Assembly: GCF_003143935.1 (NCBI RefSeq)
Contig: NZ_QFRX01000001.1
Span: 1,622,071-1,686,070, forward strand
Direction: 5' to 3'
Length of the DNA stretch: 64,000 nucleotides
From: Streptomyces sp. Act143
GTDB lineage: Bacteria; Actinomycetota; Actinomycetes; Streptomycetales; Streptomycetaceae
In this document: one piece after another, positions 30,388 to 44,289 of the stretch
Position numbering within the stretch: position 1 is the first letter of the stretch
How the letters are laid out: each line of letters begins with the position of its first letter
Position numbers and translations under genes: made by a program
The notes under the pieces: model-generated
The model's input: only the letters and a program-made list of their open reading frames with translations
The model's database searches: none
What the model was told of the DNA's origin: nothing

Positions 30388-31413
30388 TCAATCCCGGCTC
30401 GGCATGTTGTACGGGGTCACGACCTGGATCGGGGACGGCAGCGTCGGCCCGGCGGGCGGCAGCGCGCCGTGGGCCCGCATGACGAGGTGGCAGGCCTCGC
30501 GGAGGTCCTGGCGCAGGTCGTGGTGGAGGACCGCGGAGAGGCGGTGCTCGCTCAGCAGGCGGGTGTTGTCGTGGTCGAGGTCGTGGGCGACGAACACCAC
30601 GCACGCGCGGCCCAGGTCCGCGAAGGCGCGCAGGGTCGCGATGTTGCCGCCGCCGATGGAGTAGACGGCACGGATGTCCGGGTCGCGGGCGAGGGCGGCG
30701 CGGACGAGGTCGTACTGGGTGGCGTCCAGGCCCTGGCCCTCGGCGATCTCGACGAGGGTGCGGTCGGGGTGGTGGGCGCGCATGGCGCTGCGGAAGCCCA
30801 TCTCACGCTCCTCCTCGTTGCGGAAGAAGCCGCTGCTGAGGCTGGTGAGGACGTTGCCGGGCCGGTCGCCGAGCCACTGGCCCATGAGGTACGCGGCCGT
30901 CGCCCCGGCCGCCCTGTTGTCTATGCCGACGTAGCCGAGGCGGGCGCTGGCGGGCAGGTCGGTGACCAGGGTGACGACCGGGATGCCCGCGGCCACCAGG
31001 CGTCCGACGGCCGCGGTGACCTCGGGGACGTCCGGCGCCTTGAGGATCACGCCCTGGGAGCCGCGCCGGGCTATCCGGTCCAGGGTGCGGACCTGCTCCT
31101 CGACCGGGCCGGTCTCCCGGAAGTGGAAGCGGGACCGCACGACCGCCGGGTGCAGGGCGGGCAGTTCCGCCTCCAGCGCGGCACGGACCGCGGTGCTGAA
31201 GCGCTCCGGCGCCTGCATCACTATGTCGATCATGAAGGTGCGGCCCACCAGCCGGACCTGCGTGCGCTGCCGGTCGAGGTCGGCGATGGCCTGCCGGACC
31301 TCGCGGGCGGTGCTCTCCCGGACGCCGCCCCTGCCGTTCAGGACACGGTCGACCGTGGCCTCGCTCAGACCTGCCTGACGTGCGATTTCCCGGATCGGGA
31401 AGGGGTGGCCCAT
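30388..31413 (-). CDS. LacI-family transcriptional regulator
   Basis: A 341-residue LacI-type regulator. The helix-turn-helix and hinge show as IREIARQAGLSEATVDRVLNGRGGVRE, followed by a sugar-binding-protein-like effector domain with GVILKAPDVPEV and YVGIDNRAAG. It is divergent from the PhyH dioxygenase operon across 130 bases that contain a TGACAG/CTGTCA inverted repeat. It probably senses a sugar or cyclitol and controls that operon. Confidence 0.87.
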   Translation of the reverse strand: MGHPFPIREIARQAGLSEATVDRVLNGRGGVRESTAREVRQAIADLDRQRTQVRLVGRTFMIDIVMQAPERFSTAVRAALEAELPALHPAVVRSRFHFRETGPVEEQVRTLDRIARRGSQGVILKAPDVPEVTAAVGRLVAAGIPVVTLVTDLPASARLGYVGIDNRAAGATAAYLMGQWLGDRPGNVLTSLSSGFFRNEEEREMGFRSAMRAHHPDRTLVEIAEGQGLDATQYDLVRAALARDPDIRAVYSIGGGNIATLRAFADLGRACVVFVAHDLDHDNTRLLSEHRLSAVLHHDLRQDLREACHLVMRAHGALPPAGPTLPSPIQVVTPYNMPSRD

Positions 31414-31481
31414 GGGCAGGCTCCTTGAGGGGTTTTTGATGGCTCCGTGCCGGTTGTTCGACGGGTTTGTACTGACAAGAA

Positions 31482-35590: not shown

Positions 35591-36057
35591 TCGAGGGCAT
35601 GGCCGCACCCATCGCTCCCGCTCACGTCACCGACATCCAGCAGGTGCTGGCGGACCACTCCCGCTACTGGGGCGAGCGCGACCTGCGCTCGCTCCATCTC
35701 CTGGCCCTGGTGCAGGAGTTCGGGTCGACGTGCCTGGTCGCCCGCGACGACACCGGCATCCTGGGCTACCTCGTCGGGTTCGTCACGCCCGACGCCACCG
35801 GGTACGTCCATCTGATCGCCACCCGTGACGACGCGCGCGGCACCGGGCTCGGCCGCCGGCTGTACGACGCCTTCACCGAGGCCGCGCGGAAGCAGGGCGC
35901 GGTCCGGCTGAAGGCCATCACCTCCGTGACCAACACGGGATCGGTCGCCTTCCACCGAAGTCTGGGCTTCGACGCCCGTGTCCAGGAGGACTACAACGGT
36001 CCCGGTCAGCCGATGGTGGTCTTCACCCGCCCGCTCCCCGAACCCGGTCAGGCGTAG
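35587..36057 (+). CDS. GNAT-family N-acetyltransferase
   Basis: A 156-residue GNAT domain. The acetyl-CoA-binding motif is [18 protein letters not shown] (the R/QxxGxG/A element), with GYLVGFV and VHLIA strands before it and HRSLGFD after it. The ATG overlaps the previous stop (ATGA); a second ATG four codons later is also possible. It is last in the PhyH operon and its 3' end overlaps the convergent Gfo/Idh gene by ten bases. The acyl acceptor is unknown. Confidence 0.82.
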
Positions 36058-37067
36058 AGCCCCGGGCGCTCCACCAGCTCGACCTCCATCCGCCCGCCGT
36101 CCGTCAGCGCCCGCACCCCGGCCTCGCAGACGGCGGCGGCCGCGTACCCGTCCCAGACGCTCGGCCCGGTGACCTCGCCCCGGCGGGTGGCGTCGGCCCA
36201 GGCCTGGAGCTCGCGGTCGTAGGCGTCGGCGAAGCGGTCGGTGAAGTCCTGGGCGATGGTGCCGCCCCAGCGGCCGGCCATGTTGGTGACCATGGCGTGG
36301 CCGTCGCCGATGCGGGCGGTGCCGCGTTCGCAGACCGCCTCGGCCTGGACCTGGTAGCCGAAGCCGCAGTTGACGAAGATCTCCACGTCGGCGACCGCGC
36401 CGCCGTCCGTCTCGAACACCACGAACTGCGGGTCCTGCAAGGCGTCCGGCGCGTTCGCCGAGCGTCTCGGCCGCAGCACGGTGACGGCGGTGATCTCCTC
36501 GTCGAGCAGCCAGCGGGTGACGTCCGCCTCGTGCGCCACCGAGTCGCTGATGAGCATCTCGCTGGTGAAGAAGGGCGGGCTGGCCGCGTTGCGGTGCCGG
36601 TTGTGGAGGAGCAGCGGGCGGCCCAACTGGCCCGTGTCCAGCAGGGCCTTGAGGCGCACGTACTCGGGGTCGTAGCGCCGCATGAAGCCGACCTGGACCC
36701 GCCGGTGGCCGAGTCTCCGTTCGGCTTCCAGGACCCGTAGGGCCGAGGCCGCGTCCGGGGTGAGCGGCTTCTCGCACAGCACCGGGAGGTCGCGTTCGAG
36801 GGCGGCCAGCAGCGCGGCCTCGTGCGCGGGCCCCGGGGAGGCGATCAGTACGGCGTCCACGTCGTCGGCGGTCATCGCCGACAGCGGGTCGGTGTAGGCG
36901 GTGCAGCCGTCGACGCGGGCCGCCACGGCCTTGGCGCGCTCCGCGTCGGTGTCGACGACGGCGCTCACCCGGGCGCCGCTGACGACGCCCTGGATGCGCC
37001 GCACATGGTCGGCGCCCATCTTTCCCGTTCCGATGACGGCGACTCGGAGAATGTCGCTCGGCGTCAT
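36048..37067 (-). CDS. Gfo/Idh/MocA family oxidoreductase (IolG-like)
   Basis: A 339-residue dehydrogenase. Rossmann start [28 protein letters not shown] with the catalytic-region Lys, a YDPEYVRLK segment and [13 protein letters not shown] match inositol/scyllo-inosose-type dehydrogenases. It is third after the ABC importer genes and IolE-like gene on the minus strand. That supports a role in oxidising or isomerising an imported cyclitol. Confidence 0.85.
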
Positions 37068-37080
37068 GACGTCGCCCCCT

Positions 37081-37980
37081 TCAGGCGCCGCAGGACCTCA
37101 GGTACTTGCGGGTGCGCACCGCGATCGGCAGTGGCTTGTCCGGCTCGCACGGGTACATGTCCTGCTCGACGATCGCGAACAGGTCCACGCCCAGCTTCTG
37201 TGCCGCCACCAGGACCGGCTCCAACTCCGGTACACCGGAAGGCGGCTCGCACATCACGCCGCGCTGCACGGCCGGTCCGAACGGCACCTCGTCCGCCACC
37301 ACGTCGGCGAGGATCGCGGGGTCGACCTGCTTGAGGTGCAGATAGCCGATGCGTTCGCCGTACGTCTCGATCAGCTTGACGCTGTCGCCGCCGCAGTAGG
37401 CGTAATGCCCGGTGTCCAGGCAGAGGTTGACGAGTTCGGAGTCGGTCGAGTCGAGGAAGCGCTCGACGTGGTCCTCGGTGTCGAGGTGGGTGTCGGCGTG
37501 CGGGTGGACGACGATGTCGAGGCCGTACGCCTCCTTCACCTCGTGTCCGAGCCGCTCCATGCCCTTGGTGAGGTGGGCCCACTGCTCGTGGGTCAGCTCC
37601 GGGGGTTCGAGGAGCTCGGCGGTCTTGTCGTCCCGCCAGAAGGACGGGATGACGACGAGGTGCTGCGCGCCCATCGCCTGGGTGAGGGCGGCGACCTGGC
37701 TGACGTGTTCCCAGGTCGGCTCCCAGACCGAGGGGCCGCGATGCAGGCCGGTGAAGACGGTGCCCGCCGAGATCTTGAGGTCGCGCTTCGCGACCTCGTC
37801 GGTGAGCCGGGCCGGGTCGGTCGGCAGATAGCCGTACGGACCCAGCTCGATCCACGCGTAGCCGGCCTCGGCGACCTCGTCCAGGAACCGTCGCCACGGC
37901 ACCTGTTGCGGGTCGTCGGGGAACCAGACGCCCCAGGAGTCGGGGGCGGAGCCGACCCGGATGCGGTCCAGGGGGGTCAC
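37081..37980 (-). CDS. IolE-like sugar-phosphate isomerase/epimerase-fold protein
   Basis: A 299-residue TIM-barrel of the xylose-isomerase-like AP endonuclease superfamily. IolE-like features are [15 protein letters not shown] at the N-terminus, [18 protein letters not shown] in mid-protein, [21 protein letters not shown], and a terminal [10 protein letters not shown], which together give the His/Asp/Glu metal site. IolE dehydrates 2-keto-myo-inositol. The GTG start overlaps the ATPase stop (GTGA at 37977-37980). Inosose isomerase (IolI-like) is an alternative. Confidence 0.82.
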
Positions 37981-38885
37981 GACGGGTCTTCCTCGGTCGT
38001 CACCACCGGTGCGGTGAGGTCGCCCGCCTCGGGCAGCTCTTCGACGTCGACGCCGCGGACCTGGGCCAGCTCGTGCTTGAGGGCGGCCAGTTCGGAGCCG
38101 CCGGCCATGTGGTTGGTGAGCTCCTCCAGGCTGACCTCGTCGCGGGAGGCGTTGAGTTCCATGGTGCCCAGGCGCAGCACGCTGAAGTGGTCGCCGACCA
38201 TGTAGGCGTGGTGCGGGTTGTGGGTGATGAAGATGACGCCCAGTCCGCGGTCGCGGGCGGCGGCGATGTACTTCAGCACCACACCGGACTGCTTCACGCC
38301 GAGCGCGGCGGTGGGCTCGTCCAGGATGAGGACGCGGGCGCCGAAGTGGACGGCGCGGGCGATCGCCACGCACTGGCGCTGGCCGCCGGACAGCGTGCCG
38401 ATCGGCTGCTCCAGGTCGTCCAGGACGATGCCCATGTTGCGCAGCTCCGCGTCGGCGGTCTGCTTCATCTTCTCGATGTCCAGGCGCCGCAGCGGCCAGG
38501 GGCCCTTGGTCAGCTCGGAGCCGAGGAAGAAGTTGCGCCACACCGGCATGAGCGGGACCACGGCCAGGTCCTGGTACACGGTGGCGATGCCCTTGTCGAG
38601 GGCCTCGCGCGGGGTGGTGAAGCGTACCGGGGCGCCGTCGACGAGGAACTCGCCCTCGGTGTGCTGGTGCAGCCCCGAGATGATTTTGATCAGGGTCGAC
38701 TTTCCGGCGCCGTTGTCGCCCAGCACACAGGTGACCTGGCTGGGGTGGACCTTGAGGTCGACACCGTGCAGGGCGCGGATGTTGCCGTACGACTTGCCCG
38801 CGTTGCGGAGTTCGACGATCGCGCCGTCGCTCCCCTGGGGGACGGTGTCGGCGAGGACGGCCCCGTGGGTTCCGTTGGATGTCAT
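37977..38885 (-). CDS. Sugar/inositol ABC transporter ATPase (single domain)
   Basis: A 302-residue single nucleotide-binding protein of the FrcA type, unlike the tandem RbsA. Walker A is GDNGAGKST near residue 57, the signature [14 protein letters not shown], Walker [13 protein letters not shown], and the switch His is in [11 protein letters not shown]. The C-terminal 50 residues are acidic and poorly conserved. The ATG at 38885 is preferred because GGAGG lies seven bases upstream; the GTG one codon earlier is too close. It works with the permease and binding protein just upstream. Confidence 0.88.
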
Positions 38886-38889
38886 CACG

Positions 38890-39969
38890 TCACCTCCGGG
38901 TCGCCGTACGGCTGACCCACAGATTGATCAGGACGGCGCCGAGCAGCATCACGCCCAGGAAGGCCTTGAACCAGTCCGGGTTCCAACCGGCGTACACGAT
39001 GCCCTGCTGCACCATGCCGAACATGAACGCCCCGAAGACCGGGCCGATCGCGGAGCCGGCACCACCGGTCAGCAGACAGCCGCCGATGACGGCCGCGGAG
39101 ATGTAGATGAGCTCCTGGCCCACGCCTTCACCGGACTGCACGGTGTTGAAGGAGAACAGGTTGTGCATGCCGACGAACCAGGCGCCGAACCCGACCAGCA
39201 TGAACAGCGAGATCTTCGTGAAGGTCACCGGCACACCGACGGCCCGGGCGGAGTCCTTGTTGCCGCCGACGGCGAAGATCCAGTTGCCGTACTTGGTGCG
39301 CAGCAGCACCCAGGTCGCCAGCGCGGCGAAGACCAGCCAGTACACGATCGTGATCTTGATCTGGACGCCGCCGACCTCGAAGGACGACGCGAAGATCTTC
39401 TTGGCCTGGTCGAAGCCGTCCATGTCGGAGATGTCGTCGGTGGCCACGTTGCCGGTGACGAGCTTGGTGACCGCCAGGTTCACGCCCTGGAGGATCAGGA
39501 AGGAGCCCAGGGTGATCAGGAAGCTCGGCAGACCGGTCTTGACGACCAGCCAGCCGTTGAGGAACCCGATGGCGAGCGACACGACCAGGGCGGCGACCAC
39601 GCCCATCCACACGTTCAGCGTGAGCTCGTAGGCGAGCATGCTCGCGGTCAGCGCGGAGGTGATGACCGCGACGCCGGACGACAGGTCGAACTCGCCGCCG
39701 ATCATCAGCAGCGCGACCGGCAGGGCCATGATCCCGATGGTCGACGACTGGTAGAGGATGTTGGCCATCGAGCTGCCCTCGCGCACCGGCGGTGCGGAGA
39801 CCAGGAAGAAGACGTAGACGGCGACGGCGCCGAGGAAGACGCCGACCTCGGGGCGGGCCAACAGCCGCAGGGCAAGGGGACGTCGGGCGGTCCGGCCGTC
39901 GGTCTCCTTCGGGCCGGGGGCCGGCGGTGTGGTCACCGCCGGCTCGGCGTGCTGGGTCATACTGATCAC
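38890..39969 (-). CDS. Sugar/inositol ABC transporter permease
   Basis: A 359-residue RbsC/FrcC-like permease with about nine hydrophobic segments. The family's cytoplasmic contact loop reads [21 protein letters not shown] start at 39969 overlapping the binding-protein stop (GTGA) fits the AAGGG spacing better than the ATG three codons downstream. The hydrophilic first 35 residues are cytoplasmic. Confidence 0.87.
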
Positions 39970-40985
39970 CGGGTGCCCTTCGCGGCGTACTTGGCGACCG
40001 CGTCGACGTTGGACTTGTCCACGAAGGCGGGGCCGGTCAGTACCGGCTGCTCGCCGCCGCCCATGTAGTTGCCGTTGTTCTTGTAGAGCCAGAGCGAGTC
40101 GACCGAAAGGTAGCCCTGGAGGTACGGCTGCTGGTCGACGGCGAAGGCGATGCTGCCCTTGCTGATGGCGCCGGTCAGGTCCTTGTTGAGGTCGAAGGTG
40201 GCGACCTTGGCCTTGCTGCCGGCGTCGGACACCGACTGCGCGGCGGTCAGCGCGATGGGGGCGCCGAGGGCGACGACGTAGTCGATGGACTTGTCCTGGC
40301 TGAGCTTGGCGGTGATGGTCGACTTCACGGACGGCATGTCGGCGCCGTTGACGTTGACCGTCTGGAACTTGCCCTCGAAGGTCTTCTTCACGCCGTCGCA
40401 GCGCTGGGTCAGACCGATGTTGCCCTGCTCCTGGATGACACAGACGGCGCTCTTGGCGCCCTCCTCGTTCAGCCGCTTGCCGAGGGCCTCACCGGCGACG
40501 GTCTCGTCCTGGCCGAAGAACTCCATCAGGCCGAGCTTCTGCCACTCGCTGACACCGGAGTTGAGGCCGACGACGGGTATGTTCTTGGCCTTCGCCTTGG
40601 CGATGACGTCCTTCAGGGCGTCGGGCTTGGCCAGGGTGACCGCGATGCCGTCGACCTTCTGGTCGATGGCGTTCTGCACCAGGGTGGCCTGGCCTCCGGC
40701 GCTCGGGTCGTTCGTGTAGATCAGCTTGACGTTGTCCTTGGCGGCGGCGGCCTCGGCGCCCTTGCGGACGATGTCCCAGAAGGTGTCGCCGGGCGACTGG
40801 TGCGTGATCAGGGCGACCGTCATGCGCGGGGTGCTGGCCTTGCCGGCGGAGGCGCCGTCCGCGCTCTCCTCCGACTTCTTGCCCCCGGAGCTGCTGGAGC
40901 AGCCGGCGAGGGTCAGGGCAGCGGCCGCGGCCAGCGCCACAACGGGGGTCAGTCTGCGGGACTGGGAGCGAGAAGAGCGGTCCAT
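39966..40985 (-). CDS. Inositol/sugar ABC transporter substrate-binding lipoprotein
   Basis: A 339-residue periplasmic-binding-protein-fold lipoprotein. The signal has basic residues, an Ala-rich core and the lipobox LAGC, followed by a Ser/Lys-rich linker. Fold markers include VALITHQSPGDTFW and VDGIAVTLAKPDALK. AGGAAAG precedes the ATG. It is first in the operon and transcribed from a promoter inside the 17-bp inverted repeat at 41126-41195. Adjacent inositol genes make a cyclitol the likely ligand. Confidence 0.88.
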   Translation of the reverse strand: MDRSSRSQSRRLTPVVALAAAAALTLAGCSSSSGGKKSEESADGASAGKASTPRMTVALITHQSPGDTFWDIVRKGAEAAAAKDNVKLIYTNDPSAGGQATLVQNAIDQKVDGIAVTLAKPDALKDVIAKAKAKNIPVVGLNSGVSEWQKLGLMEFFGQDETVAGEALGKRLNEEGAKSAVCVIQEQGNIGLTQRCDGVKKTFEGKFQTVNVNGADMPSVKSTITAKLSQDKSIDYVVALGAPIALTAAQSVSDAGSKAKVATFDLNKDLTGAISKGSIAFAVDQQPYLQGYLSVDSLWLYKNNGNYMGGGEQPVLTGPAFVDKSNVDAVAKYAAKGTR

Positions 40986-41105
40986 CTTTCCTGCACCTCA
41001 CTGTGCTTTGCGGGGGAAAGGAAGAGAGATCTCGGTGATCCGAGGCCCGGGATCTTGGCATGTCCGGGTCGCGGGCCGCAAATACGGCGGTTGCGCTGGG
41101 ACGGA

Positions 41106-41216
41106 ATCCAATCCCTGGGCGTGGCCCCTGTCAATACTTTGTTAAGACATCATTTCACGTACAGGTCCGAATGTAAGTACAAAGTATTGACAGGGTCACC
41201 TCCCGCGTCCTACACC
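41106..41216. promoter_or_regulatory. Divergent inositol promoters inside a 17-bp inverted repeat
   Basis: Two perfect 17-base arms (41126-41142 and 41179-41195; arm CCCTGTCAATACTTTGT) flank a 36-base AT-richer spacer. Each arm contains TTGACA oriented outward: the minus promoter pairs it with TTGGAT at 41106-41111 (17-base spacer), and the plus promoter with TACACC at 41211-41216 (18-base spacer). A repressor on both arms would shut both operons; the GntR gene at 43498 is the likely source. Confidence 0.7.
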
Positions 41217-41274
41217 TGAGACTCGCAGGCCCCCGCGCGGGCCGCACGTCAGCCGAGTCCGAGGAGCGTCGCGC

Positions 41275-41520
41275 ATGGTCGTACCCGCCCAGCCCTTCGA
41301 CTTGATCACGATCGGTCGCACCGGAGTCGATCCTCACGCACGGCAGCCGGGCATGGCGTCGGACGATGTGCAGACCTCCGGGACGTTCCTGGGCGGTTCT
41401 GCGGCGAACACGGCCGTCGCCCCCCGGCTCACCTCCTCCTCCACCATGCCGACGCGGCCGGAGGTCGAGAGCCTCCTGACAGCGGCGGCATCTTGGACAG
41501 CACCTCGTGCGGCGCCTTGA
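41275..41520 (+). pseudogene. Remnant of 5-dehydro-2-deoxygluconokinase (iolC)
   Basis: The first 50 or so codons encode FDLITIGRTGVDPHA and TFLGGSAANTAVA, the unmistakable PfkB-type N-terminus of IolC, with a GAGGAG site eight bases before the ATG. After about position 41430 similarity stops, and the frame ends at 41520 with about 81 residues against more than 300 for a kinase. The ATP-site and catalytic Asp regions are missing, so no kinase can be made. The leader may now mainly carry iolD transcription. Confidence 0.75.
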
Positions 41521-41584
41521 GCGACACCGTCCACGACCGGCCCGAGCACCCCGGCCCCCGCCCCCGACCCCCGGAGAAGTCCTG

Positions 41585-43462
41585 ATGAGCAGCCCCACCC
41601 GCCGCCTGACCGTCGCCCAGGCCCTGGTGCGTTTCCTGTCCGTGCAGTACACCGAGCGCGACGGTGTGCGGCAGCGGCTGATCGCCGGCACCTGGGGCAT
41701 CTTCGGCCACGGCAATGTCGCGGGCGTCGGCCAGGCGCTCCTGGAGGCGGGCGAGGAGGCGATGCCGTTCCACCAGGGCCGCAACGAACAGGCCATGGTG
41801 CACGCGGCCGTCGGCTACGCCCGCCAGCTCGACCGCCTCTCCGCGCAGGCGGTGACGACGTCCATCGGCCCGGGCGCCACGAACCTCGTCACCGGCGCCG
41901 CCCTGGCCACCATCAACCGGCTCCCGGTCCTCCTCCTGCCCGGCGACTACTTCGCCTCGCACGCCCCCGACCCGCTGCTCCAGCAACTGGAGCACCCCAC
42001 CGAGGCGGACGTGTCGGTCAACGACACCCTGCGCCCGGTCTCCCGCTACTTCGACCGGATCACCCGCCCCGAGGCCCTGATCCCGTCCGCCCTCAACGCC
42101 ATGCGGGTCCTCGCCGACCCCGCCGAGACCGGCGCGGTGACCCTGGCCCTGCCGCAGGACGTGCAGGCCGAGGCGTACGACTGGCCGGAGGAGTTCTTCG
42201 CCGAGCGCGTGTGGCACGTACGGCGGCCCGCGCCCGACCCCTACGAGCTGGCGGCGGCCGTGGCGGCGATCCGGGCCGCCGAGCGCCCCCTGATCGTCGC
42301 GGGCGGCGGGGTGCACCACAGCAGGGCCGAGGAGGCCTTGAAGACGTTCGCCGACGCCACCGGCATCCCGGTCGCCTCCACGCAGGCCGGCAAGGGCTCC
42401 CTGCGCCACGACCACCCGGCCGACCTCGGCGGCATCGGCCACACCGGCACCGCGGTCGGCGACGCCCTCGCCCGCACCGCGGACCTGGTGATCGGCGTCG
42501 GCACCCGCTACACGGACTTCACCACCGCCTCCGGCACCCTCTTCCAGAATCCGGGCGTCAGGTTCGTCAACCTCAACATCACCGCGTTCGACGCCCACAA
42601 GCTGGCGGCACGGACTCTGGTGTGCGACGCCCGGACGGGGCTGACTGCGTTGACGGAGGCGTTGGCGGGTCATCGCGTGAACTCGGTTCACGAGGCGGAG
42701 TACCGCGCCGGGAAGGAACGTTGGGAGCAGGTGGTCGACACGGCTTTCAGCGCCCCCGACGACCACGCCGTACCGACCCAGACCCAGGTGCTCGGCGCGC
42801 TGGACGCGGTCGTGGGCGACGACGACGTGGTCATCAACGCGGCCGGTTCGCTCCCCGGCGACCTGCACAAGCTGTGGCGGGCCCGCAGCCCGCGCCAGTA
42901 CCACCTGGAGTACGGCTACTCCTGCATGGGCTACGAGATCCCGGCCGCCATCGGCGTCCAGCACGCCACTCCCGACACGCCCGTGTGGGCGCTGGTCGGC
43001 GACGGCACCTATCTGATGATGCCGACCGAGATCGTCACGGCCGTGCAGGAGGGCCTGCCGATCAACCTGGTCCTCATCCAGAACCACGGCTACGCCTCCA
43101 TCGGCGGCCTGTCGGAGTCGGTCGGCGGGGAGCGCTTCGGCACCGCCTACCGCTACCGCTCCGCCGACGGCACCTTCTCCGGCGCGCCGCTCCCCGTCGA
43201 CCTGGCCGCCAACGCGGGCAGCCTCGGTATGGACGTGCTGCGCGCCAAGACGGTCCGCGAGCTGCGCGAGGCACTCGCCACGGCCCGCGCCTCCGACCGC
43301 CCCACCTGCGTCTACGTCGAGACGGGCCCCGCCGGTCCGGCCGCTCCCCCGGCCGAGGCCTGGTGGGACGTGCCGGTGGCCGCGACCGCGTCCCGCGAGG
43401 CCGCCGTACGGGCCAGGGAGGAGTACGACCGGCAGGTCGCCGCCCGCCGCACCCATCTGTGA
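41585..43462 (+). CDS. iolD: 3D-(3,5/4)-trihydroxycyclohexane-1,2-dione acylhydrolase
   Basis: A 625-residue ThDP enzyme of the acetolactate synthase superfamily with IolD character. N-terminal LTVAQALVRFLSVQY and GIFGHGNVAG are followed by the activating Glu in GRNEQAMVHAAVG. The C-terminal ThDP motif begins VGDGTYLMMPTEIVTA and ends LIQNHGY. IolD opens the cyclohexanedione ring of inositol catabolism. The ATG at 41585 follows GGAG; the upstream frame is shadow. The preceding iolC is only a relic, so the next steps must be encoded elsewhere or be lost. Confidence 0.87.
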   Translation: MSSPTRRLTVAQALVRFLSVQYTERDGVRQRLIAGTWGIFGHGNVAGVGQALLEAGEEAMPFHQGRNEQAMVHAAVGYARQLDRLSAQAVTTSIGPGATNLVTGAALATINRLPVLLLPGDYFASHAPDPLLQQLEHPTEADVSVNDTLRPVSRYFDRITRPEALIPSALNAMRVLADPAETGAVTLALPQDVQAEAYDWPEEFFAERVWHVRRPAPDPYELAAAVAAIRAAERPLIVAGGGVHHSRAEEALKTFADATGIPVASTQAGKGSLRHDHPADLGGIGHTGTAVGDALARTADLVIGVGTRYTDFTTASGTLFQNPGVRFVNLNITAFDAHKLAARTLVCDARTGLTALTEALAGHRVNSVHEAEYRAGKERWEQVVDTAFSAPDDHAVPTQTQVLGALDAVVGDDDVVINAAGSLPGDLHKLWRARSPRQYHLEYGYSCMGYEIPAAIGVQHATPDTPVWALVGDGTYLMMPTEIVTAVQEGLPINLVLIQNHGYASIGGLSESVGGERFGTAYRYRSADGTFSGAPLPVDLAANAGSLGMDVLRAKTVRELREALATARASDRPTCVYVETGPAGPAAPPAEAWWDVPVAATASREAAVRAREEYDRQVAARRTHL

Positions 43463-43497: not shown

Positions 43498-44289
43498 ATG
43501 GCGAAGACCGGCGGTCGCTCACGCACCGCTCCCCCTGCCGCCTCCGCGCTCGACTCCGTGCACTTCGCCCTGGACCGGAGCAGTCCGGTGCCCCTCTACT
43601 ACCAGCTCGCCCAGCAGCTGGAGGCGGCGATCGAGCACGGCGTCCTCGCCCCGGGGAACCTCCTGGGCAACGAGATCGACCTCTCCGTACGCCTCGGCCT
43701 GTCCCGCCCGACGGTCCGCCAGGCCATCCAGACCCTGGTCGACAAGGGCCTGCTGGTGCGGCGGCGCGGGGTGGGCACGCAGGTGGTGCACAGCCAGGTC
43801 AAGCGAGGACTCGAACTGAGCAGTCTCTACGACGACCTGGAGACGGCCGGGCAGGGGCCGACCACACAGGTGCTGCGCAACGAACACGTCCCGGCCGCCG
43901 CCGACGTCGCCGCCGCCCTCGGCATCGCGGAGGGCGCCGACGTCGTCGTACTGGAACGACTGCGCTGTACCCACGGCCAGCCGGTGGCGTTCCTGTGCAA
44001 CTACCTGCCGGCGACCCTCCTCGAACTCGACACCCCGAGACTGGAGTCGACGGGCCTGTACCGGTTGATGCGCTCGGCGGGCATCACCCTGCACAGCGCC
44101 CGCCAGACCGTCGGCGCCCGCAGCGCCACCGCCGAGGAGGCGGCCCGCCTCGGCGAGCGGGAGGGCACCGCGCTGCTGACCATGCAGCGCACGGCCTACG
44201 ACGACACCGGACGGCCGGTGGAGTACGGCACGCACATCTACCGCGCGTCCCGGTACGCGTTCGACTTCCAGTTGCTCGTCCGCCCCTGA
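43498..44289 (+). CDS. GntR/HutC-family regulator (UTRA domain), probably of inositol genes
   Basis: A 263-residue GntR regulator. The winged helix at about residues 28-95 carries EIDLSVRLGLSRPTVRQAIQTLVDKGLLVRR. A UTRA effector domain follows, with ERLRCTHGQPVAFLCNYLP and a terminal EYGTHIYRASRYAFDF. It starts after GGGAGG, 35 bases past iolD. The symmetric operator at the two iol promoters is the natural target, as with IolR-type repressors that respond to inositol-pathway intermediates. Confidence 0.86.
   Translation: MAKTGGRSRTAPPAASALDSVHFALDRSSPVPLYYQLAQQLEAAIEHGVLAPGNLLGNEIDLSVRLGLSRPTVRQAIQTLVDKGLLVRRRGVGTQVVHSQVKRGLELSSLYDDLETAGQGPTTQVLRNEHVPAAADVAAALGIAEGADVVVLERLRCTHGQPVAFLCNYLPATLLELDTPRLESTGLYRLMRSAGITLHSARQTVGARSATAEEAARLGEREGTALLTMQRTAYDDTGRPVEYGTHIYRASRYAFDFQLLVRP

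Follow-up and report, generated by a model that had tools for sequence, protein, structure and literature searches.

Paired putative GntR operators between the uptake and breakdown genes of an inositol divergon in Streptomyces

Introduction

Inositol gene clusters are reported for 87% of 1,235 Streptomycetaceae species (PMC9430895). In Streptomyces coelicolor, inositol catabolism is described as being regulated by SCO6974 (PMC6295645, PMC6608401), which the title of a paper cited in both of these sources calls a repressor (Yu et al. 2015, Appl Microbiol Biotechnol 99:3141). By the title of Yu et al. 2016, SCO6256 is a second GntR acting on inositol genes (PMC6608401). The operon sco6979-6982 of the same organism is described with its genes in the order binding protein, membrane protein, ATPase (PMC6767563). 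IolR of Corynebacterium glutamicum is presented as an autoregulated repressor of inositol genes (PMC8634428) and is of GntR type by the title of Klaffl et al. 2013 (cited in PMC8634428). Regulators of the HutC subfamily are described as binding mostly palindromes in which GT and AC lie 4 nt apart (PMC4494728). Among publications on Streptomyces inositol regulators and GntR divergent promoters, in a body of literature outside which most subscription journals lie, no title pointed to the paired-operator geometry described below.

The window, the whole stretch of DNA analysed here, comprises 64,000 nt of the 9.62-Mb genome of the soil bacterium Streptomyces sp. Act143 (G000:C1:1622071-1686070). 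In comparison with its relatives, positions 41106-41216 emerge as the control region that both halves of a Streptomyces inositol divergon share, situated between uptake and breakdown genes. The switch appears to be an ordinary and well-conserved one; very likely it is orthologous to a type on which work in Streptomyces already exists. As in the SCO6974 regulon, the gene of an inositol regulator of GntR type stands together with iol genes and the promoters that serve them, and the transport operon has the same make-up as sco6979-6982 (PMC6767563). The locus differs from that regulon in having an iolC remnant and no iolB or iolA between the control element and gntR, while the genome has an intact iol cluster at another place. 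The local GntR is probably the SCO6974 orthologue, an assignment that has gene order and an operator motif as its basis. By description, it also resembles the C. glutamicum IolR, a GntR-type, autoregulated repressor of inositol genes (PMC8634428). A conspicuous repeat can in this way be assigned to a known inositol switch, with the comparison showing which of its letters matter.

Gene order and the local regulator

The leftward operon (minus strand) begins with the gene for a sugar ABC substrate-binding protein (39966-40985) and continues with an ABC permease (38890-39969) and an ABC ATPase (37977-38888), all three recognized by domain and family profile matches. It extends into genes for an iolE-like inosose dehydratase (37081-37980) and an iolG-like oxidoreductase (36048-37067), whose best NCBIfam matches fall below the respective cutoffs (TIGR04379, 145.4 bits against 290; NF052679, 334 bits against 540). 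On the plus strand, the rightward operon opens with the iolC remnant, an 81-aa ORF that retains the IolC N-terminus (41275-41520). It is followed by iolD (41585-43462; TIGR04377, 897.7 bits, above the 715-bit cutoff), which was scored on an ORF that opens at 41507 and ends at 43462, with 41585 as the predicted start. The last gene of this operon encodes the GntR/HutC-type regulator (43498-44289). In 15 relatives inspected, iolC is shortened at the same place in L028, L052, L056, and L092, absent in L023, L026, and L070, and near full length in L017 and L063.

The regulator carries the helix-turn-helix (HTH) and UTRA domains of a HutC-type protein, scoring above the cutoffs of PF00392 (54.9 bits) and PF07702 (135.5 bits), whereas its matches to NCBIfam models all stayed below the respective cutoffs. 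It matches the HutC-subfamily repressors DasR (3.2e-30) and YvoA/NagR (1.1e-34) along most of its length and shares with them the GT-N4-AC rule (PMC4494728). The closest solved chain, 2ra5 (3.7e-115), is named merely 'Putative transcriptional regulator'. DasR and YvoA/NagR differ from the local GntR in ligand, targets, and operator letters.

Two predicted promoters and two putative operators at a fixed geometry

Searching the named genomes with the GntR protein gave at least 542 confirmed relatives, of which the best 80 loci were kept (78 labelled Streptomyces, one Actinobacteria bacterium, and one Kitasatospora). The control element was sought in these with a pattern that tolerated up to 4 mismatches per half and let the starts of the two halves lie anywhere from 10 to 120 nt apart. 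It was present in 77 of the 80 fetched loci; the excluded three (L037, L042, L067) lie on contigs that begin inside or near the element. Together with the window, this makes 78 regions, which correspond to 50 distinct 64-nt sequences and are therefore not independent. Despite the latitude allowed by the pattern, the half-to-half distance is identical in all 78. The 64-nt frame has no mismatch in 77 regions and three in the remaining one (L025), where the left −35 box is lost and the binding-protein gene was not found beside the element. Across the frame, 38 of the 64 columns are invariant and 50 reach at least 95%, a level attained by no column of the 60-nt outer flank on either side.

The frame contains two outward-facing TTGACA boxes, the predicted −35 elements of the importer promoter (41129-41134, minus strand) and of the iolC/iolD/gntR promoter (41187-41192, plus strand). 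Each of their six columns is kept in at least 77 of the 78 regions on the left and in all 78 on the right. The −10-like hexamers are TTGGAT on the left (41106-41111, minus strand; 17-nt spacer; modal base in 58-75 of 78 regions per column) and TACACC on the right (41211-41216, plus strand; 18-nt spacer; 66-73 of 78), and their outer ends are the limits given to the region in the original prediction. Stretches overlapping the two −10 blocks have mean modal-base frequencies of 0.84 (left) and 0.90 (right). A generic sigma-70 consensus scan of positions 40500-41800 returned no promoter, because both −10 hexamers match TATAAT poorly. TACACC is weak, and both predicted promoters rest on conservation at the 17- and 18-nt spacings. 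The divergent promoter-like boxes with mirrored −35 elements that had been proposed at the outset are backed by the comparison of 78 regions, with predicted starts at about 41100 (minus strand) and 41223 (plus strand). In several loci (L033, L034, L046, L049), no iol gene was found between the element and gntR, which are separated by a gap of a few hundred nucleotides. The right promoter therefore most likely drives gntR, whose product most likely regulates its own expression through it.

Inward of each TTGACA by 5 nt lies a TGT-N4-ACA palindrome of HutC type, the left putative operator reading TGTCTTAACA (41140-41149, minus strand) and the right one TGTAAGTACA (41172-41181, plus strand), with 32 bp between their centers. 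TGT and ACA, and with them the GT-N4-AC palindrome of HutC operators, are present at both sites in 78 of 78 regions, a count to be read with the fact that the regions were selected by a pattern holding these letters, at up to 4 mismatches per half. The full left operator recurs in 65 regions and the right one in 63. In none of the 78 are the left and right operator letters the same, so that the identical affinity at the two operons claimed in the original prediction is unsupported, the matching arms notwithstanding. What is conserved is the pair of TGT-N4-ACA sites and TTGACA boxes at one fixed geometry, not a perfect 17-mer.

The element was also surveyed in 150 Streptomyces genomes. It occurs in 56, three of which (G003, G016, G062) match just at 3 mismatches and have lost one −35 box; in the 26 of these 56 genomes that were compared, it lies 98-6549 nt from gntR. 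At least one GntR match is found in 134 of the 150 genomes, and at least two at E ≤ 1e-60 in 55. Element and second gntR copy go together: 53 genomes have both, 3 the element alone (G003, G016, G024), 2 the second copy alone (G022, G070), and 92 neither (Fisher 2.8e-34, shared descent ignored). By eye, G022 has the element as well, with one extra base inserted into its left arm. Among 296 genomes of the class, the element is found in 11, all belonging to the 28 Streptomyces, and in none of the 268 genomes from other genera. As had been anticipated, a single regulator, the GntR encoded at 43498-44289, likely serves both operons, a role that the comparison backs.

The operator motif and a paralogous regulator

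For SCO6974, Yu et al. in 2015 reportedly described the operator motif (A/T)TGT(A/C)N(G/T)(G/T)ACA(A/T). Searched as WTGTMNKKACAW, this motif has 85 occurrences across the 80 fetched loci, 72 of them at the element and 13 elsewhere, versus 0 for the reversed control. The right operator fits it exactly, a likeness to the SCO6974 regulon; the left operator of the window is off by one base, a difference from it, and a left operator that fits (TGTCTTGACA) is seen in 8 of the 78 regions. In the genome of Streptomyces sp. Act143, the motif is found at 9 places (15 strand matches), versus 1 per strand for the reversed control. Five of the nine are at iol-type genes or at a paralogous gntR, and a sixth precedes another GntR match by ~110 nt. 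The other three, near genes for a solute-binding protein, a TetR regulator, and a sigma factor, may be chance occurrences.

The paralogous GntR is encoded at 2290 kb (L097, G000:C1:2281000-2299000) and is 73% identical to the local one. It probably corresponds to SCO6256, and it differs from the local regulator in having a separate locus, beside a ROK-family glucokinase-like gene and an iolG-like gene. Over the run of its HTH stretch (LGLSRPTVRQAIQ ... VRRRGVGTQVVHSQVKR), the paralogue departs from the local GntR at one residue, and two motif-fitting sites flank its gene, one ahead of the gene and the other in the stretch that separates paralogue and ROK gene. Given a near-identical DNA-reading stretch and two fitting sites, cross-binding by the paralogue may occur. 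That the paralogue shares the operators of the divergon with the local GntR or competes for them, or is even their main binder, is a minority reading, with perhaps one chance in a few of being right. It accords with the published title according to which SCO6256 conditionally regulates inositol genes (PMC6608401). The survey speaks against it: the element goes with the second gntR copy, whereas at least one match is present in 134 of the 150 genomes. On the iolG-like side of the paralogue, operator and TTGACAG stand ~30 nt before the start codon, and the transcript could be leaderless.

A conserved center between the operators

The two putative operators, as the presumed sites of the local GntR, do not account for all of the conservation. 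The 22 nt between them (41150-41171), which read ATCATTTCAC-N3-CAGGTCCGAA, have a mean modal-base frequency of 0.924, versus 0.444 and 0.467 in the 60-nt outer flanks. A center so nearly invariant is more than two operators alone require. One half of it, GACATCATTTCAC, is found in its own genome exactly in the window and at 5 further places with one mismatch, the control giving 0. For GGTCCGAATGT-N4-ACA there are 2 exact places, the window and the spacer between iolE and iolC of the intact cluster. With up to 2 mismatches, its 6+3 matches do not exceed the 10+6 of the reversed control, so that meeting it again at the two sites next to the paralogue is no more than suggestive.

It is conceivable, if rather improbable, that the 64-nt element constitutes one composite nucleoprotein site instead of two independent operators, with the unlike operators and the center holding a repressor pair. 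Such a pair might consist of a local GntR dimer and a paralogue dimer, or involve a further factor. If so, one complex would set the importer and catabolic promoters to different strengths. The 78 aligned regions and the 150-genome survey offer a ready test of the way in which paired operators and a paralogous repressor would share one control region in Streptomyces. In a few genomes (G032, G087, G109, G128), the GGTCCG of the center is swapped for CGTGAG.

The inverted repeat

The feature that first drew attention to the region is an inverted repeat with two 17-nt arms, each reading ACAAAGTATTGACAGGG, at 41126-41142 (minus strand) and 41179-41195 (plus strand). Searches for inverted repeats and for arm matches bear out what had been said of it: the arms are perfect (0 mismatches), 36 nt separate them, and each contains a TTGACA. 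None of 100 dinucleotide shuffles had two arm matches at up to 3 mismatches. The weight placed on the 17-bp perfection is not upheld, however. Matched runs of 17 nt or more are found in just 9 of the 78 regions, the window counted, and runs of 7-11 nt in 57; in L017, the closest fetched relative (GntR 93% identical), the run measures only 9 nt. Considered together with the differing operators, this makes the identical arms a by-product, formed by the two −35 boxes and the ends of the two putative operators, each of which spans the inner end of an arm, and lengthened in Streptomyces sp. Act143 by further letters.

A genome-wide search for additional copies of the arm, recommended with the original prediction, gave one at up to 3 mismatches. 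This copy has 2 mismatches and is located at 7,041 kb, in the spacer before iolC of the intact cluster, a row of iolE-like, iolC, iolB, iolD, and methylmalonate-semialdehyde dehydrogenase (iolA type) genes that, all but iolE, score above cutoff. The spacer reads GGTCCGAATGT-N4-ACAAA-N3-TTGACAGGG on the iolC side, has a reverse TTGACA on the iolE side, and holds only one TGT-N4-ACA site. An operator followed by TTGACAG and facing a gene is seen on both sides of the element and at iolC of the intact cluster with a 5-nt gap, and between the paralogous gntR and the iolG-like gene with a 6-nt gap.

These recurrences, and the perfection of the arms in this strain, are what recommend the view that the regulator reads the arms themselves, or operator and TTGACAG as one longer word, in two equal copies. 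The scarcity of long runs among the 78 regions, the unequal gap at the paralogous gntR, and the variation of three right-arm columns (modal base in 48, 52, and 64 of 78) beside constant TGT and ACA all count against it. Neither the ROK-side site of the paralogue nor a site at 31467 in the window (see below) has an exact TTGACA within 40 nt, the latter having ATGACA instead. Taken together, these observations make recognition of the arms unlikely.

A model for the divergon

We consider it highly probable that the GntR represses both promoters and its own gene, with relief by inositol, through the two operators of two outward promoters. Transcription would start outward from the mirrored TTGACA boxes. 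The HutC-type repressor, whose gene closes the right operon, would bind each TGT-N4-ACA as a dimer. With the sites 32 bp, or about three helical turns, apart, the two dimers would lie along the same side of the helix and keep RNA polymerase from both promoters. The repressor would be freed by inositol or one of its breakdown products, upon which the importer, the catabolic genes, and the repressor itself would all rise together. The original prediction of DNA looping or cooperative dimers stands in part: paired, possibly cooperating dimers on one DNA face fit a 32-bp distance kept in 78 of 78 regions, whereas looping is unneeded over 32 bp.

The position of the putative operators upstream of the −35 boxes, at roughly −50 to −41 relative to the predicted starts, could also suit a GntR that activates instead of repressing. 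Both promoters have a consensus −35, and the published title calls SCO6974 a repressor, which leaves activation with little to commend it. That the repeat, long and intergenic as it is, functions as RNA (a hairpin, terminator, or riboswitch) is very improbable, as three of its 14 arm pairs are broken in 15, 24, and 52 of the 78 regions and three more in 1 each, double-changed cells across the pairs total 3, no Rfam match appears up to E=1, and, if the promoters point outward, neither transcript includes the repeat, which precedes both. A structured RNA element was accordingly rejected as a candidate, with neither compensatory stem changes nor a match to a known family.

A candidate third promoter

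Repression by the local GntR may extend beyond the divergon. An operator-like site, TTGTACTGACAA (31467-31478, plus strand), precedes a PhyH-SDR-iolG gene row in the window and lies 2.1 kb ahead of iolG33. Across the 80 loci, 12 of the 13 motif places outside the element are 1.0 to 2.3 kb upstream of an iolG33 match. Such a match is present in 20 of the 80 loci; in the 8 of these that are without the site, no more than 1.9 kb separates iolG33 from the locus start, so that the operator place may be cut off. The placement of these motifs upstream of iolG33 points to a third regulated promoter ahead of the PhyH-SDR-iolG row. Divergent from the PhyH gene, at 30388-31413 on the minus strand, is a gene for a LacI-type regulator with a periplasmic-binding-like domain.
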